From positions 1-21,050 of the IMG/VR virus record IMGVR_UViG_3300038701_001770: 21,050 nt of DNA; one strand, given 5' to 3'. This document shows positions 4,839-20,822 of the stretch, piece by piece. The notes under the pieces are model-generated. The model made no database searches. It saw only the letters and a program-made list of their open reading frames with translations, and was not told the DNA's origin. The position numbers were made by a program, and so were the translations under genes. This DNA comes from a virus. How positions within the stretch are numbered: position 1 is the stretch's first letter; each line of letters starts with the position of its first letter.

Positions 4839-6014
4839 TTATGCGCTGATTTGGCTTTTGATAGCCGCGCGGATGACGTCCTCGATATCGTCACTTTGCA
4901 CCGGGCGACGGGGGGCACCTTGGCCAGCGCCGTCAATGTTTTTGCTGGCCGCCTTCGATTTACTCAAGGTGGCCGCTTGCTGTTGTGGTGATGGTTGTGG
5001 CACCGGGGTAGGCTGTTGTGCGGCGGAATTGCCGCCAAACGATGACATCATCTGTTGCGATGCTTGGTTGTAAAATTCGTCAAGCTGAGTCACGTTCACG
5101 CGCTGACCGGTCTGGTCGTAGAAATTCTTGACCGCCTGTTCGATCATCGGGCGCAGTGTCGCGTAGTGTGGCCGCTTCAGGTTGCCGGATTCATCGGTTT
5201 CGTTGACAAAATTCAGGTAGTCACGGCGCGCTTGCTCTTGATGCTGGCGCTCTGGCGAGTCCGGACCCTTGATTTTACCCATGCCGTTTGCCGCGCGCAG
5301 CTCTTCGTTTTCACGCCTCAGAGCTTGGGTCTCAGGATCTTCGAAAAGATCATCATCTTCCCGCTTTGAAATTTTCAGATTGAGTTTTTCGGCAGCGGCG
5401 CTGAGCACATCAAACTCTTTGCCCTTTTCAGAGGCCATGCTTTCGATCGCCCAAGCGAGGTAATCCGCAGGGTCTTCATGCGCATGCGTTGCGATCCGGA
5501 TAAGCCGCTCCGACATTTGAGCCGGTGTTGCCCCAAAATGAGAAAGCTGTGATTGCGCATAGGGCGATTGAAAAGGTTGAAGCGCATCGTCGGCCGCGCG
5601 GATCCGCTTGGCGACTTCCGCGCGATGCGTATCCGGCAGGTCTTTGATCAGGTCCGAAACCGAGGCCTGTGAAATATCACCTAGCTCGTCATCGCTGGAT
5701 GTTTCGTCTGGCTCTTCAGGCTTGGTATCTTCAGGCTTGGTATCTTCAGGCTTGGTTTCAGCCTTTGGCGCATCATCTGAGCTCTTGCTGTACTTGCCCT
5801 TGAGGTTTGCATCAGACGCAAGCTGCGCCGCCTCTTCGATACCAACAGTTTCTGCTACTTCGGGATCTTCAAGCGGCGGCTGATCCAGACCAGCGTCATC
5901 ATCATCATCGGCCATTTGCTGTTGCAAGGCCTTGCGAATGATTGCGGTTTCTTCGTCATCTTCGTCTTCGAGAGCGGTGTCTACAAAGATGTCGTCAAGA
6001 TCATCATCGGCCAT
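4839..6014 (-). CDS. Scaffold-like acidic protein upstream of capsid gene
   Basis: A 391-residue, strongly acidic, low-complexity protein between portal-associated genes and the major capsid gene, where P22-like phages encode the scaffolding protein. Residues 1-130 are Asp/Glu-rich with a DTKPE pentapeptide repeat. The middle is helical with charged coiled-coil character (LFEDPETQALRRENEELRAANG). The C-terminus has a Gln/Ala/Pro linker followed by a basic/helical tail (DDIEDVIRAAIKSQISA). Scaffolds use a C-terminal helical segment to bind coat. The segment PFQSPYAQSQLSHFGATPAQMSERL with ADYLAWAI recurs in uncharacterised phage scaffolds. The ATG at 6014 has a GGAG ribosome site. The role is inferred mainly from position, composition and length. 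Confidence 0.72.
   Translation of the reverse strand: MADDDLDDIFVDTALEDEDDEETAIIRKALQQQMADDDDDAGLDQPPLEDPEVAETVGIEEAAQLASDANLKGKYSKSSDDAPKAETKPEDTKPEDTKPEEPDETSSDDELGDISQASVSDLIKDLPDTHRAEVAKRIRAADDALQPFQSPYAQSQLSHFGATPAQMSERLIRIATHAHEDPADYLAWAIESMASEKGKEFDVLSAAAEKLNLKISKREDDDLFEDPETQALRRENEELRAANGMGKIKGPDSPERQHQEQARRDYLNFVNETDESGNLKRPHYATLRPMIEQAVKNFYDQTGQRVNVTQLDEFYNQASQQMMSSFGGNSAAQQPTPVPQPSPQQQAATLSKSKAASKNIDGAGQGAPRRPVQSDDIEDVIRAAIKSQISA
5713..5757 (-). repeat. Three tandem 15-bp repeats encoding DTKPE units
   Basis: Three adjacent 15-base units (tcttcaggcttggta on the plus strand; the third differs only at its last base) lie inside the scaffold-like gene. The unit is a multiple of three and gives the peptide DTKPE/ETKPE in phase. 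It is a recent tandem expansion in a disordered acidic region, and copy number probably varies between relatives. Confidence 0.9.
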
Positions 6015-13917: not shown

Positions 13918-14477
13918 GCGTCGTCACTCCGGTTGTGCCTGTCCGTCAATTCCCTGATCCGCATGTCCAGCTCTTCTTCCGTCATATTTGAAAGCGATGC
14001 GGTCGCGCCTTCGACACTCTGTTCCCCTGCCCCGAGCGCGGCTTTTTCGTCCTGCGTTTTGCGGAGATTTTCAGACCATCGATCACGTTGCCTGAGTCCA
14101 AGCCAGCGACTGGCGGCGACAGTATCGGGGGCAATCTCGGTCTTTGTGACCTCCACCACAAACTCATCCGGATTGCCTGGCATGCGGCGCGCAACCTCTT
14201 TTGTCGTCACCATTCCGGTGGCTCGACGGTAGAGTGAATGCGCGACATTGGCGTCAGCGATCTTTCTACCCCCTTCTAAAGACTGAAGAAAATCCGGGTT
14301 TTCTTTCTTCCAAGCGTTCAGGGTTTTTTCTGAGATTCCGTAAAACTCTGAAATTTCAGTATCTTTCAGGCCGAGCAACGACAATCGGAAAACCGCCTCA
14401 TTCATTGACGGGTCATATTCAGTTTCTCGCCCGCGTCTTGGAAAGGCCTTGATTGGAAGCAGCTTTGCCTTTGCCAT
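13914..14477 (-). CDS. terS: Terminase small subunit (DNA-binding)
   Basis: A 187-residue protein. Residues about 15-60 hold YDPSMNEAVFRLSLLGLKDTEISEFYGISEKTLNAWKKENPDF in separate helices, a helix-turn-helix typical of small terminases. It continues with EGGRKIADANVAHSLYRRATG. A beta segment (TKEVARRMPGNPDEFVVEVT) and a helical part (DTVAASRWLGLRQRDRWSE) follow, as in proteins of the terS class that select viral DNA. ATG 14477 is preferred: it overlaps the preceding TGA and has AGGA 7 bases upstream. It should act with TerL, although about 2.7 kb of small genes separate them. Confidence 0.85.
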   Translation of the reverse strand: MAKAKLLPIKAFPRRGRETEYDPSMNEAVFRLSLLGLKDTEISEFYGISEKTLNAWKKENPDFLQSLEGGRKIADANVAHSLYRRATGMVTTKEVARRMPGNPDEFVVEVTKTEIAPDTVAASRWLGLRQRDRWSENLRKTQDEKAALGAGEQSVEGATASLSNMTEEELDMRIRELTDRHNRSDDA

Positions 14478-15316
14478 CAAACCATCCTTTCGAATTGAGC
14501 TGTGATACACCAGCCCATGCTGGCACTTCTTTCGATCATTTTTTTGCGTTGCAGGTAACGCATCATGTTGATGCTCGCGCTATCGGATATTCCCATTCCA
14601 TCGCGGATTGCCCGAACGGCCGACATCCCGGCCTGGCGGTGCTTGATGATCTTCAAAAGGCTGTAGTCTGTTGCTGAGAGTTTGCCATCCATGATGGCAC
14701 GCGGCGCGAATTGCCCCTTGGTCCTGGTTGCCGTGTAGGCTGTTGACCTGCCTGAAGCCAATGACAGCGGGTGTTGACCTGGAACAATGTATCCGGTTTC
14801 GGTCAGGATCTGGACAGTAAGAGCAATGTTGTTCAGGTCCGGTGATGTTGCCCTGTCAGCGCCAATCTGTCCGATATGATAGATGCAGACGTCTTGATAC
14901 TTTGATGCGCGGCACCAGGTCAGAAACTCTTCTATGGTTCCAACCGTGGACTGGAATGCAGCGCGCAATCCAAATCGTGTAGTGGTGATCACCTTGCGCT
15001 CGATAGGCGCCGGGGCTGGCCTTGGCTCTGGCACGGGGGGCTTTGGGGTTTCCTTTTCAGCTTGAGCTGTTACCCGGTTGATCACTTCGTAGGTGTTGGG
15101 CTTGCGGCCCTTCCCCGGAGTCCTCACCCTGATTTGATCGGTATCAATCAGATCAGAAATTGCCGCCGAAACACCGTTTCGCGTGTGCCCGACGCTATCG
15201 GCGATCGTCTTTGTCGATGCTGAAACAATACCTGATTCATCAGCATTTTGACAGAGCCAAATCAAGGCAAGAGCTGCAACACCCGTGGATTCCGTGTGTT
15301 TTAGTGCTTCAATCAT
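14477..15316 (-). CDS. Multi-winged-helix DNA-binding protein
   Basis: A 279-residue protein from ATG 15316 (GGAG 9 bases upstream; longer in-frame starts reach back to GTG 15376 but lack ribosome sites). Residues 1-80 are a winged helix (STKTIADSVGHTRNGVSAAI, then ISDLIDTDQIRVRTPGKGRK). A Pro-rich linker spans 89-105. Residues 128-195 carry W..CRASKYQDVCIYHIGQIGADRA with a following helix and a GYIVPGQH wing. Residues 213-265 are another HTH (LLKIIKHRQAGMSAVRAIRDG, then MMRYLQRKKMIER). Such proteins may act in replication or late control. It overlaps the one-TM gene stop by 8 bases and precedes terS, so a late-gene regulator is a reasonable guess. Confidence 0.65.
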   Translation of the reverse strand: MIEALKHTESTGVAALALIWLCQNADESGIVSASTKTIADSVGHTRNGVSAAISDLIDTDQIRVRTPGKGRKPNTYEVINRVTAQAEKETPKPPVPEPRPAPAPIERKVITTTRFGLRAAFQSTVGTIEEFLTWCRASKYQDVCIYHIGQIGADRATSPDLNNIALTVQILTETGYIVPGQHPLSLASGRSTAYTATRTKGQFAPRAIMDGKLSATDYSLLKIIKHRQAGMSAVRAIRDGMGISDSASINMMRYLQRKKMIERSASMGWCITAQFERMV

Positions 15317-15527
15317 CTTCACATTCTCCGACCCAGGCAAAGCGCCCATCGCTTTCGCAAATCTCGGCATGGCCACGGGTCAAGGCGTCATGCCGCCAGT
15401 CCGGTTCGACAAGCCAAACCCAAAGCAAGTAGCTGAATGCCACCAGCAAAGACATGCAGACCACCGTTGCGATGGTCAGCAATGTGCTCACGAGTTGAGG
15501 CAAACGGTTGAATGCGCTCGGGTCCAT
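15309..15527 (-). CDS. Small single-TM protein
   Basis: A 72-residue protein from ATG 15527 with AAGGA upstream. Residues about 12-35 (LVSTLLTIATVVCMSLLVAF then SYLLWVWLV) form a transmembrane helix. A short polar C-terminus carries two Cys and ends FAWVGECEDD, probably outside or inside the membrane as a small domain. Function unknown. It starts one base after the zinc-finger-like gene stop and overlaps the next gene by 8 bases. Confidence 0.6.
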   Translation of the reverse strand: MDPSAFNRLPQLVSTLLTIATVVCMSLLVAFSYLLWVWLVEPDWRHDALTRGHAEICESDGRFAWVGECEDD

Positions 15528-16756: not shown

Positions 16757-17268
16757 GGCTGGTGCTCCGTTTCTTTGATCTTCGCGGGCTTTGGATTTGC
16801 GGCGATTTCAGCCAGCGCTTGCACCTCAGCGGTGCGCGCTGGTGGCTTGCACAGCCGGTATCGGATGATTGGCTGATACTCACGATCACGGCAGACGCGC
16901 AGACGCTTCCCGGACAGCCACTTGCGCCGCCAACGCCATGTCCAGCCCGGGTTCAAATCGGTAATGCAGCCTTGCGCCTGCTCGAGTGGAGTCTTGTACC
17001 TAGCCCCCGTTTCGCTTGACCACGTAGTTTGGAGCACCTCCCCCTTTTGCAGATCAAGGCTGTAGGGGAATCCTTTGCCGTCGTGATCGATCCATGGTCC
17101 GTAGTTTTCGTCAGTCATGAACTTCTCCCAAAAAAAGCGGCCTGAACCGGCGCATGGCTCCAGATACTTCGCCCCAGGTTCGATATGGCCGAGCAATGGG
17201 GATACAGCCTGAAAAGGCGTGTCGTAGCTGTCCCGCTCTCGGCGTGGGAAATCGCTCCGTTTGCCCAT
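16753..17268 (-). CDS. Methyltransferase remnant fused to small GPWI-type protein
   Basis: A 171-residue ORF with two unlike parts. Residues 1-50 (MGKRSDFPRRERDSYDTPFQ, then KYLEPCAGSGRFFWEKF) are the start of a phage DNA methyltransferase, with the DxYDTP entry and the SAM-binding motif I LEPCAGSG (36-43). None of the later motifs, including the NPPY/DPPY catalytic loop, is present. From residue 51 (MTDENYGPWIDHDGKGFPYS) the protein is a different small phage type, with WTWRWRRKW and YQPIIRYRLCKPP later on. Met51 at 17118 has its own GGGAG ribosome site 6 bases away. It may thus be the original start of a separate gene, and the fused form may not be the main product. Methylation activity is very unlikely. 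Confidence 0.65.
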   Translation of the reverse strand: MGKRSDFPRRERDSYDTPFQAVSPLLGHIEPGAKYLEPCAGSGRFFWEKFMTDENYGPWIDHDGKGFPYSLDLQKGEVLQTTWSSETGARYKTPLEQAQGCITDLNPGWTWRWRRKWLSGKRLRVCRDREYQPIIRYRLCKPPARTAEVQALAEIAANPKPAKIKETEHQP

Positions 17269-17585
17269 CAGGCCTGAGACTCCATGTCCGGACGTCTGGC
17301 AATCTCTTCGACCATCTGAAGCTGGAATGCGTAGGTCGGGTCGCATGCGCTCATTTCTTGCGCCCTACGGACAGCGTTCAAGATGCTGGTGTGATCACGC
17401 TGAAAGATCGACCCGATCTGATTGAGAGACTTTCCACAGCACCGATACGCAACGTTGATTGCGGCAAAGCGAGGATTCACAAACTCGACAAACCTGCGCT
17501 GGCCCGTAATGTCCTCTTGCCGGATGTTGAAAACGGTGCTGGCGCTGAGGACCACTTTCGTGATGGATGGATTGTCGGATCTCAT
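17268..17585 (-). CDS. Stand-alone DnaA domain IV-like protein
   Basis: A 105-residue protein resembling only the C-terminal DNA-binding domain of DnaA. Residues 12-36 (LSASTVFNIRQEDITGQRRF) match the first helix, then VNPRFAAINVAYRCCGKSL and NQIGSIFQRDHTSILNAVRR (55-74). The latter is the DnaA signature with the RDHTSxLNAV recognition helix. No AAA+ domain is present. DnaA domain IV binds 9-bp DnaA boxes, so this protein could mark the phage origin or compete with host DnaA. The stop of the initiator gene overlaps its ATG (ATGA), with GGAGG upstream, so the pair is coupled. Confidence 0.85.
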   Translation of the reverse strand: MRSDNPSITKVVLSASTVFNIRQEDITGQRRFVEFVNPRFAAINVAYRCCGKSLNQIGSIFQRDHTSILNAVRRAQEMSACDPTYAFQLQMVEEIARRPDMESQA

Positions 17586-18430
17586 TTCGCTTCCTCCAAT
17601 TTTTCTAGGAAAGCCAGGCCAGCTCGACGCACTGCATCGACGGGGCTTTCCGCCATGCGCTTTGCTTGAGCGATCTTGGCATCGAGGCTGTGTTCCCGCT
17701 GCGGCTCTGGGTAGTCGTTCCAGCGCTCGTCATTCAGCCAGGAAACCGCATGGGCGATGTATTGCGGCTTGTTGCCCTCGTTCTCGATCGCGTAACTCTT
17801 GGCGCTTGCGATGATGCGCTTCGGGTCGGTGCCTTCAGCGATGACTTCGTTGAACACTGCCCGAGCATCTTCACGCCGTGTTTCGACGGTTCGCGGATGC
17901 GCTTTCCAAAACTTTTCGAAAAAATCTGTGTGTGGGTCGGCTTCCGACACACAAGGTTCCTTTCCTGGTTCTATTCCAGGGTTCTCTATGGTGTCCGGAT
18001 TCCGGACACGGTTTTGCTGTGAATCCGGACACGGTTTTGCTGTGAATCCGGACACGGTTCCATGTCCGGTTTCTGGACACGGAACCGCTACATCTTGTGT
18101 TGGCTCATCTACATCTTGTGTCCGTGTCCGATTTTCGGACATGGGGAATTGAGGCTCATTGAACGACAAAATATAGCTAGTGACTTCCTGCTTTCCGGTC
18201 TCTTGATTGACCGATGACAGCCTCCGAATAAGACCCCTTTCCTCTAGGATTTTGAGGTGTACGTTGATGGTGCTGCGGCTGACTTGCAGGTCATAAGCCA
18301 ATGTGGCCTGACGTGGGTTGCATTGGCCTGTGTGGCCATTGTGGCAGTCTGCCAAGTGCCACAAGAGAAGCTTGGTCGTAGGGCTCAAATCGCGCTGTTT
18401 GATCGCCCAATTTGTCGCCGCATGACTCAT
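17582..18430 (-). CDS. Phage replication initiator
   Basis: A 282-residue protein. Residues 14-75 are a winged helix (SPTTKLLLWHLADCHNG, then NPRQATLAYDLQVSRSTINVH and LKILEERGLIRRL) like HTH_36 replication proteins. A low-complexity linker (about 95-165) contains the repeat cluster in its DNA. The C-terminal domain (about 170-245) reads FFEKFWKAHPRTVETRREDARAVF with YIAHAVSWLNDERWNDYP, a helical module frequent in phage initiators and helicase loaders. It probably binds repeats inside its own gene and recruits the host helicase. ATG 18430 has AAGG 8 bases upstream and overlaps the preceding stop (ATGA). Longer in-frame starts upstream read through the 55-residue ORF in another frame and are unlikely. 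Confidence 0.82.
   Translation of the reverse strand: MSHAATNWAIKQRDLSPTTKLLLWHLADCHNGHTGQCNPRQATLAYDLQVSRSTINVHLKILEERGLIRRLSSVNQETGKQEVTSYILSFNEPQFPMSENRTRTQDVDEPTQDVAVPCPETGHGTVSGFTAKPCPDSQQNRVRNPDTIENPGIEPGKEPCVSEADPHTDFFEKFWKAHPRTVETRREDARAVFNEVIAEGTDPKRIIASAKSYAIENEGNKPQYIAHAVSWLNDERWNDYPEPQREHSLDAKIAQAKRMAESPVDAVRRAGLAFLEKLEEAK
17991..18141. repeat. Iteron-like repeat cluster; candidate replication origin
   Basis: Nine TGTCC[GA]/[TC]GGACA half-sites lie in 151 bases within the initiator gene. There is a perfect 19-bp palindrome gtgtccggattccggacac (17991-18009). A 23-bp tandem unit occurs at 18001-18023 and 18024-18046 with a 14-base third copy at 18047-18060. An inverted pair lies at 18063-18079, and a perfect 7-bp-arm palindrome with 3-base spacer at 18125-18141. 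Between them, ctacatcttgtgt occurs twice, 21 bases apart (18088 and 18109). The 23-bp period is not a multiple of three, so the repeat is not preserved for the peptide. Position inside the initiator gene resembles lambda ori within O. Confidence 0.75.
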
Positions 18431-20030: not shown

Positions 20031-20174
20031 TCAAAAGGCCCCGGCAGGATGGAGACCTGCCGGGGAAGTTTGTTGACGGACAGTCAACAGGGAGGATGGG
20101 ACCAAACATCCGCTACGCGGTCCCGATACGTGGCAGTGAACATGCGGATGAATTCTGTGAGTGGTGGTATTCAT
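20031..20174 (-). CDS. Possible short ORF (47 aa) over the hairpin region
   Basis: ATG 20174 overlaps the stop of the regulator gene as ATGA, with GGAGG 10 bases upstream, and the frame ends at 20031, just before the next ribosome site. The peptide starts MNTTTHRIHPHVHCHVSGPR and is His- and Pro-rich, with no recognisable fold. The GC-rich hairpin lies within it. It may equally be non-coding, so this is a weak call. Confidence 0.3.
   Translation of the reverse strand: MNTTTHRIHPHVHCHVSGPRSGCLVPSSLLTVRQQTSPAGLHPAGAF
20039..20065 (-). terminator. GC-rich stem-loop, possible intrinsic terminator or attenuator
   Basis: A perfect 10-bp stem (arms ccccggcagg 20039-20048 and cctgccgggg 20056-20065) with a 7-base loop. 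On the coding strand it is followed by CCTTTTGA, a short T run 2 bases from the stem. It lies between the regulator gene and the small HTH gene, where partial termination would set the level of downstream early genes. Confidence 0.6.
20072..20088. promoter_or_regulatory. Palindrome, possible operator
   Basis: gttgacggacagtcaac is an inverted repeat with 6-bp arms and a 5-base centre, 6 bases from the GC-rich hairpin. Its size and position between two DNA-binding-protein genes suit an operator. No good -10 box is near it, so promoter overlap is not shown. Confidence 0.4.
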
Positions 20175-20713
20175 TCGTCATCAACCTCCCATGGGAAGAT
20201 GACACCTGGCTCGCGGGACATGATGTATCCCTCGCCCCAAAGAACCCGGATTTTCACCTTGCCGCACAGTTTGATGCGCATGCGGCTTATGTAGACCTTG
20301 ACGATTCCAGCATCCGGCGGGTTCGCCGCGTCGATCAAAACGGCAGTAAGCGCCTGATCGTGTGTTAAAAGAGTGCCTTCCCGCGCATGCAGCGCTGAAA
20401 ACAGACGTCGCTCAGCGGGTGTCAAACTAATGTCTGGGAATATGCCCCACTCATCCTCTGGATTGCCCACCAGCTCTTCAACAAGACATGTCAAAAACTC
20501 GACAGCGTCGGCGACTTTCATCTCACTGACAGTTGAGCGAACAGATCGCGATAAATCGCGGGACTGTTTGAACTTCAAGCCGAACTTTTCAGTCGCGCGG
20601 CGCACGGCTCGACGGCTGTAACCGTATGACGTAGCAAACCCATATTCCGTTTGATTGTCATTTATCCCACCGACAATAGCCGCATATGGGATCTCGGGGG
20701 CTCTACTAACCAC
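20171..20713 (-). CDS. DNA-binding regulator with OmpR/CtrA-type winged helix
   Basis: A 180-residue protein from GTG 20713 (AAGGGGG 7 bases upstream; an in-frame TTG at 20749 is the longer option). Residues 20-50 hold a first HTH (EYGFATSYGYSRRAVRRATE). Residues 96-165 are a response-regulator C-terminal winged helix: ISLTPAERRLFSALHAREGT, then AGIVKVYISRMRIKLCGKVK and IRVLWGEGYIM, with the WG.GY wing. There is no receiver domain or phosphoacceptor. It may compete with or mimic a host OmpR/CtrA-class factor, or act as a dedicated phage regulator. The target sites are unknown. Confidence 0.75.
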   Translation of the reverse strand: MVSRAPEIPYAAIVGGINDNQTEYGFATSYGYSRRAVRRATEKFGLKFKQSRDLSRSVRSTVSEMKVADAVEFLTCLVEELVGNPEDEWGIFPDISLTPAERRLFSALHAREGTLLTHDQALTAVLIDAANPPDAGIVKVYISRMRIKLCGKVKIRVLWGEGYIMSREPGVIFPWEVDDE

Positions 20714-20822
20714 TCCAAAACCCCCTTCGGATCGTGCGCGCGGCCACAATAATTTCGGTAGACGACTTGTTAACCTTTTCGCTGGTCCCCACGTTTTCAG
20801 CAGGCAAGAGACCTCCGAGCAT
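20707..20822 (-). CDS. Short ORF (38 aa) between two regulator genes
   Basis: ATG 20822 overlaps the stop of the preceding HTH gene (TAATG), with GGAGG 7 bases upstream, a very good ribosome site. The peptide starts MLGGLLPAENVGTSEKVNKS and ends IIVAARTIRRGFWSG. Its stop lies a few bases into the next gene, in the coupled style of the operon. There is no family match. It is short, but initiation signals support translation. Confidence 0.5.

Follow-up and report, generated by a model that had tools for sequence, protein, structure and literature searches.

Does the replication initiator gene of this virus also contain the phage's origin of replication? The question is raised by a cluster of short repeats within one gene of the window, by which we mean the whole 21,050-nucleotide stretch analysed (IMG/VR virus record IMGVR_UViG_3300038701_001770). 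An earlier note on this DNA had proposed that the repeats, at 17991-18141, form an origin built of iterons inside the initiator gene, in the manner of phage lambda.

The initiator gene and the repeats within it

The features on which the argument depends are as follows.

17582-18430, minus strand: initiator gene, 282 aa (MSHAATNW...), with an N-terminal winged helix-turn-helix domain (wHTH; HTH_36), a disordered linker and a C-terminal helical domain
18146-18430, minus strand: wHTH-coding part (residues 1-95), model pLDDT 93-98 over residues 1-90
18239-18277, minus strand: recognition helix, residues 52-64 (RSTINVHLKILEE), in which R52 covaries with iteron position 5, S53 with position 8 and V57 with position 9
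18188-18190, minus strand: wing residue Q81, which covaries with iteron position 3
18122-18144: upstream dyad, core TGTCCGATTTTCGGACA at 18125-18141, with an extra half-site GTGTCCG abutting at 18118-18124
18060-18083: second dyad (inverted pair 18055-18087), core TGTCCGGTTTCTGGACA at 18063-18079, offset -71/-59 from iteron 3
18048-18057, minus strand: iteron 1, CCGTGTCCGG
18025-18034, minus strand: iteron 2, CCGTGTCCGG
17991-18011, minus strand: iteron 3, CCGTGTCCGG at 18002-18011, extended to a full dyad at 17991-18009
17955-17990, minus strand: 12-bp repeats rich in A (GAACCCTGGAATA/GAACCAGGAAAG/GAACC, gene strand), a candidate DNA-unwinding element
17268-17585, minus strand: gene for a DnaA domain-IV-like protein, 105 aa, overlapping the initiator stop; Bac_DnaA_C 9.8e-13

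Translation of the initiator is likelier to start at the ATG at 18430 than at an upstream TTG, since the relatives begin with MSH. A Pfam profile search matched HTH_36 (1.7e-15), and the best PHROG match was phrog_270, 'replication initiation protein' (3.1e-39, residues 2-251 of 282), with several 'replication initiation O-like' families ranking behind it. The AlphaFold model, made from 32 sequences (pLDDT 78.8), places wHTH helices at residues 3-11, 17-28, 41-48 and 52-64 and a wing at about 72-84, followed by a linker (98-165), modelled with very low confidence, and from residue 166 onwards by a helical C-terminal domain, modelled confidently. Structure comparison assigns the wHTH to a MarR/CRP-like fold; Foldseek/VIA matches to residues 1-94 were to generic wHTH domains only, and a sequence search of solved structures found no relative.

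The repeats fall in the DNA that codes for the linker, disordered in this model, and those listed by the earlier note were recovered: a 19-bp perfect palindrome (GTGTCCGGA-T-TCCGGACAC, 17991-18009), 23-bp tandem repeats (18001-18059; 2.6 copies, 100% match), two further inverted pairs (18055-18087 and 18122-18144), and nine TGTCC/GGACA half-sites within 151 bases (17991-18141), where 0.46 would be expected from the whole window. The rest of the 21,050-bp record has no dyads of the form TGTCCGN5CGGACA, even when one mismatch is allowed. When the gene was shuffled with peptide and codon pool kept, one shuffle in 5000 reached the triple 23-bp array (10/10 columns), and likewise one in 5000 reached the three dyads. 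Because the spacing is exactly 23 bp, each iteron lies in a different codon phase, the three encoding TVSG, PCPD and NRVR; the period does break the reading frame, as had been claimed.

Between the two dyads lies a 13-bp direct repeat, CTACATCTTGTGT (gene strand ACACAAGATGTAG), at 18088-18100 and 18109-18121, 21 bp apart. It is in frame and could be a peptide or a DNA element; a similar pair is found in two relatives (L009/L010, about g292 and g313; peptide QDVEGQTQDV). Far from the initiator, a 15-bp tandem repeat at 5713-5756 (2.9 perfect copies of TCTTCAGGCTTGGTA) lies in frame in the ORF at 4839-6014 and encodes KPEDT repeats.

The stand-alone DnaA domain-IV-like protein encoded next to the initiator matches TIGR00362 DnaA in its C-terminal part only (3.7e-13) and, judged from the domain alone, is possibly an accessory origin-binding protein; it may be a DnaA-box binder or a competitor of DnaA. 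The window holds no perfect DnaA box (TTWTCCACA), and five matches with up to one mismatch against 6.6 expected. A second HTH protein (14477-15376, minus strand) weakly matches phrog_8540, 'replication initiation O-like' (8.7e-6), and phrog_270 (7.9e-5); its gene adjoins that for the terminase small subunit. The protein encoded at 20171-20749 (minus strand) has a response-regulator output domain (Trans_reg_C 2.8e-9), no receiver domain being reported, and might exert a CtrA-like control.

Conservation of the array and its covariation with the protein

Relatives were sought by similarity to the wHTH in GTDB and IMG/VR contigs and in phage and plasmid records, which yielded 248 gene entries, with some contigs represented repeatedly, and 167 after dropping those more than 95% identical. 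The named hosts of close relatives are Alphaproteobacteria (Hoeflea, Rhizobium, Neorhizobium, Roseibium, Rhodobacter, Paracoccus, Roseicitreum and Sulfitobacter). Counting as an array three copies of a 10-bp unit spaced exactly 23 bp, with 9 or more of the 10 columns identical, we found one in 140 of the 167 non-redundant genes, where synonymous-codon shuffles predict 0.1. The check proposed in the earlier note, whether the repeats persist as the linker peptide drifts, thus had a positive outcome. Two spacings alone stand out in the range 12-45, namely 23, in 140 genes, and 12, which 18 genes show in the downstream tract. The array begins at gene nt 305-454 (median 369), and in 116 of 126 relatives a reverse half-site at +12 makes iteron 3 part of a full dyad. 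Subsets carry additional dyads at -71 or -83, -128 and -176; the window is of the -71 type, and 39-46 of the 126 share a dyad at its -71/-59 offset. In the phage records scanned, the sites cluster within the initiator gene.

Relatives with the same initiator and no repeats, the case named as counting against an origin, turned up only as some short, distant homologues of 214-238 aa without detectable repeats (among them L181, L188, L189, L193 and L197). One clade has a shortened array, a dyad and two 23-bp copies, which still obeys the residue-to-base rules at positions 3 and 5. The same scan found no such array in TP901-1 rep. A circular phage-like plasmid (L042, a Sulfitobacter 46-kb plasmid record) has a short initiator whose gene abuts that for a DnaB-like helicase, and its repeats GGTAAAGTC are spaced 24, 25, 22 and 22 bp; no other replication initiator is annotated there. 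In the rhizobial branch (L004-L008, L017-L036; helix DERSVRR) the dyad half-sites are everted (CCGGACAATTTGTCCGG) rather than inverted, possibly reflecting a different dimer geometry.

The earlier note had suggested that selection acts on the DNA rather than on the peptide, a view strengthened here by iterons kept in all three codon phases and by bases that track the HTH recognition residues. Within one recognition-helix class of 48 genes, third codon positions are identical at 99.5% in the iterons, 80% in the spacers and 67% in the HTH-coding part. The three iterons of the relatives, in their three phases, encode AVSx, PCPx and SRVR-type peptides, and in five genes the phases are rotated, so that the same DNA encodes those peptides in another order. 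The linker peptide is probably a by-product of the DNA sites.

The iteron itself differs by lineage (CCGTGTCCG, CCATCTCCG, CCGTGTCTCA, CCGTGTCGCA, CCGTGTCCA, CCGAGTCCA; AACCGGACA in the rhizobial branch). Coupling analysis of 126 genes with a CC-type iteron, covering 95 x 10 residue-base pairs, gave as its three strongest corrected couplings the pairs 57-9, 81-3 and 52-5 (residue first, iteron position second). Arginine at residue 52 accompanies G at position 5 (102/102) and I/V/P/S accompany C (24/24); at residue 81, Q/K go with G at position 3 (99/99) and R with A (27/27); serine at residue 53 goes with C at position 8 (104/104); and at residue 57, R goes with C at position 9 (17/17), D/E/L/A with G (89/90) and N/T/G with A (12/13). 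In the AlphaFold model, the recognition helix begins with the stretch that holds residues 52, 53 and 57, and residue 81 is in the wing.

On a tree built without residues 52, 53, 57 and 81, residue and base changes fell on the same branches in 4/4, 3/3, 4 and 10 instances (hypergeometric p of 8e-9, 5e-7, 1e-6 and 2e-12, in the same order). Genes fetched later, and therefore out of sample, followed the rules at position 3 (11/11), position 5 (11/11) and position 8 (9/9), and at position 9 for D, E and R at residue 57. Valine, the window's own residue 57, is ambiguous (in sample it accompanies G five times and A once; out of sample, A in 5/5), and the preset rule that Val57 specifies G at position 9 was withdrawn on that out-of-sample result. 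Because residues and bases change in concert, the comparison strongly supports binding of the initiator to the iterons in its own gene. Under the code, a change of Q81 to R would shift the predicted binding preference from CCGTGTCC to CCATGTCC.

The C-terminal domains of the homologues fall into two large groups of 115 and 40 genes, without detectable mutual similarity, plus several small ones; the same wHTH and array are common to all of them. Such modularity fits a wHTH and iterons that would form one specificity unit, with a C-terminal domain that would recruit a helicase or loader.

The A-rich tract, the proposed origin and its alternatives

The segment delimited by the earlier note ends just before an A-rich tract of 12-bp repeats, which belongs to it. 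In relatives this tract lies directly 3' of iteron 3 (CTAACCcTGTAAGgGAACC..TAAg.aAACCaGTAA), has an AT content of 55-59%, with A making up as much as 44% of the gene strand, and is the least stable part of their genes (family mean z +2.85 at offset +20). Valine is encoded by GTA in 292 of 297 tract codons as against 81 of 1899 elsewhere, and arginine by AGR in 206 of 226 as against 292 of 4163; the A-rich tract forces rare codons. The tract peptide, PVREPVxEPV, is also conserved in relatives, and a role for it is possible but leaves the codon choice unexplained. With 52% AT over 48 bp, the window's own tract is weaker than that of most relatives; it encodes IEPG where they have REPV, and contains both ATA codons of the gene. 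Stability over 40 bp at 17951 is at the 97.7th percentile of instability within the window, and a 40-mer less stable still lies at 18145-18186, on the other side of the iterons. In L105, L126, L168 and relatives a purine run, GGAGGAGGAGG, directly follows the tract at about +60 from iteron 3; it resembles a Shine-Dalgarno sequence and could mark an internal start.

Taken together, the conserved array, the covariation of residues with bases and the lambda-like layout support the proposal of an in-gene iteron origin, and we consider it probable, at about 0.87 on this comparative evidence, that the iteron array and the A-rich tract form the phage's replication origin. Counting against it are the comparatively weak tract of the window and the less stable 40-mer beyond the iterons, the want of a perfect DnaA box or of an excess of near matches, the distant homologues without detectable repeats, the clade with a shortened array, and the ambiguity of valine at residue 57. 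In the mechanism that we propose, one winged helix would bind each of the three CCGTGTCCGG iterons, which lie 23 bp or about two helical turns apart, and the dyads would be bound by two wHTH domains facing one another. The nucleoprotein complex assembled on the array would open the adjoining 12-bp-repeat tract 3' of iteron 3, and the C-terminal domain, which differs among lineages, would then recruit the host replicative helicase or its loader. The array, its selection as DNA, the covariation and the rare-codon tract are shown by the sequences; that strand opening, helicase loading and origin firing would all occur at this putative origin, we infer. No paper on this origin came up in a search of the open-access literature, though one may nevertheless exist.

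Binding of the protein within its own gene, as supported by the covariation, could instead serve only to limit transcription: the sites would be operators, acting by road-block or autorepression, and the origin would lie elsewhere. Autoregulation is common among iteron initiators, and the MarR/CRP-like fold of the wHTH would suit such a function. Nevertheless, the sites lie about 290-440 nt into the coding region, away from the promoter, and the rest of the record has no such dyads. The gene start overlaps the preceding gene in several relatives, and the PHROG annotation of the protein is that of an initiator. Operators would also leave unexplained both the adjoining A-rich, rare-codon tract and the conserved three-copy 23-bp phasing, and we hold this explanation to be unlikely. 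Quite improbable is the reading that the HTH protein binds a site for partition (a centromere) or one related to packaging. Direct repeats and dyads are arrayed in parS and centromere sites too, but the protein family is one of replication initiation, an adjoining unwinding-prone tract would not be expected, and no ParA/ParB-like gene was detected among the window proteins scanned against Pfam and PHROG.

The remaining alternatives concern the repeats rather than their binding. A repeated linker motif (PCPE/RVRN/REPV) might be selected as peptide, the repetition in the DNA being secondary, and the conserved, in-frame REPVxEPV peptide with its 12-bp period, together with the conservation of the linker in some clades, would be in keeping with this. 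Against it stand a period that is not a multiple of 3, iterons that encode three different peptides with the phase rotated in 5 genes, 140 arrays where synonymous shuffles give 0.1, the rare codons forced upon the REPV tract, and the disorder of the linker in the AlphaFold model; on the strength of the synonymous shuffle and the codon phases we rejected this very improbable reading. A mobile palindromic or coding repeat element, akin to the Rickettsia RPE, might instead have inserted in the linker and spread, since palindromes in a disordered linker resemble such insertions. Within the record, however, the dyads are confined to the initiator gene, where the matches cluster, the Hoeflea chromosome shows no excess (69 matches versus 84 for the reversed control), and the sequence varies among lineages in step with the HTH. 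This candidate was likewise rejected, its probability being close to nil.

If the array and tract are indeed the origin, then its position is fixed to single-base precision in considerably more than a hundred temperate phages and prophages, of which the close relatives with named hosts come from Alphaproteobacteria; such genes are often annotated merely as 'helix-turn-helix' proteins. A self-contained arrangement of the lambda type would exist with an initiator that shows no recognisable kinship to O, the code linking residues to bases would make origin specificity directly testable and suggest which prophage replicons could cross-initiate, and small replicons might be obtained for genetics in alphaproteobacterial hosts. 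More tentatively, and at somewhat less than even odds, the wHTH code (residues 52, 53, 57 and 81) may give each lineage a private origin, incompatible with the others and predictable from the protein, and the GAACCNGTAARG 12-mers may be a conserved single-strand loading site of an undescribed type, written in rare codons.

Comparison with known in-gene origins

The order and position of the elements match those of lambda O, to whose layout the earlier note had likened this gene. In our lambda control the four iterons lie at gene nt 349-433, with spacings of 20, 24 and 23, and are followed by a 40-bp stretch whose gene strand is 65% A. Lambda ori (PMC7466680) and the window share dyad-like iterons that are spaced 20-24 bp and lie midway along the initiator gene, and an A-rich tract on the gene strand 3' of them. 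The two proteins have alike an N-terminal DNA-binding domain, a linker and a C-terminal domain, which in the window protein, too, would be the recruiting one. Unlike lambda, the window has another iteron sequence, three iterons at a strict 23 bp with separate dyads, and an A-rich tract built of 12-bp repeats. The initiator did not match Pfam Phage_rep_O (PF04492) at E<=0.1, whereas lambda O itself scores 5.7e-36; BLASTP gave no alignment with lambda O above chance; and no lambda P-like helicase-loader gene was found adjoining the initiator, the DnaA domain-IV-like gene lying directly downstream. The element would work like lambda ori, and membership of the O family is not supported by profile or alignment.

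In the staphylococcal RepA_N plasmids pSK41 and pTZ2162 the origin is central in rep, the peptide that it encodes is dispensable, and the initiator comprises a wHTH N-terminal domain and a separate C-terminal domain, both DnaD-like (PMC5703833). The two-domain plan and the central position, in the window that of a candidate origin, are shared by pSK41 Rep and the window initiator, which did not match Pfam RepA_N (PF06970) at E<=0.1. The window wHTH superposes on 4pt7_B ('Structure of initiator') with Z 8.7-8.8 over 80 residues, a value equalled by many unrelated wHTH entries, and matches the DnaD N-terminal domain 2v79 at a Foldseek E of 0.02, where many unrelated wHTH entries score alike. RepA_N origins differ from the window in belonging to Firmicutes plasmids and in the form of their iterons, inverted repeats that converge towards a poly-A tract (PMC7145576).

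Short tandem repeats in weak duplex beside initiator sites also characterize the 13-mers of the DNA-unwinding elements of RK2 oriV and E. coli oriC (PMC4081077), and the window and its relatives resemble them in this respect. Unlike those 13-mers, the 12-bp repeats GAACCNGTAARG are in frame within a coding region, 55-60% AT and not strongly T-rich. The candidate origin would belong to a known kind, that of the in-gene iteron origins represented by lambda O and pSK41 RepA_N.
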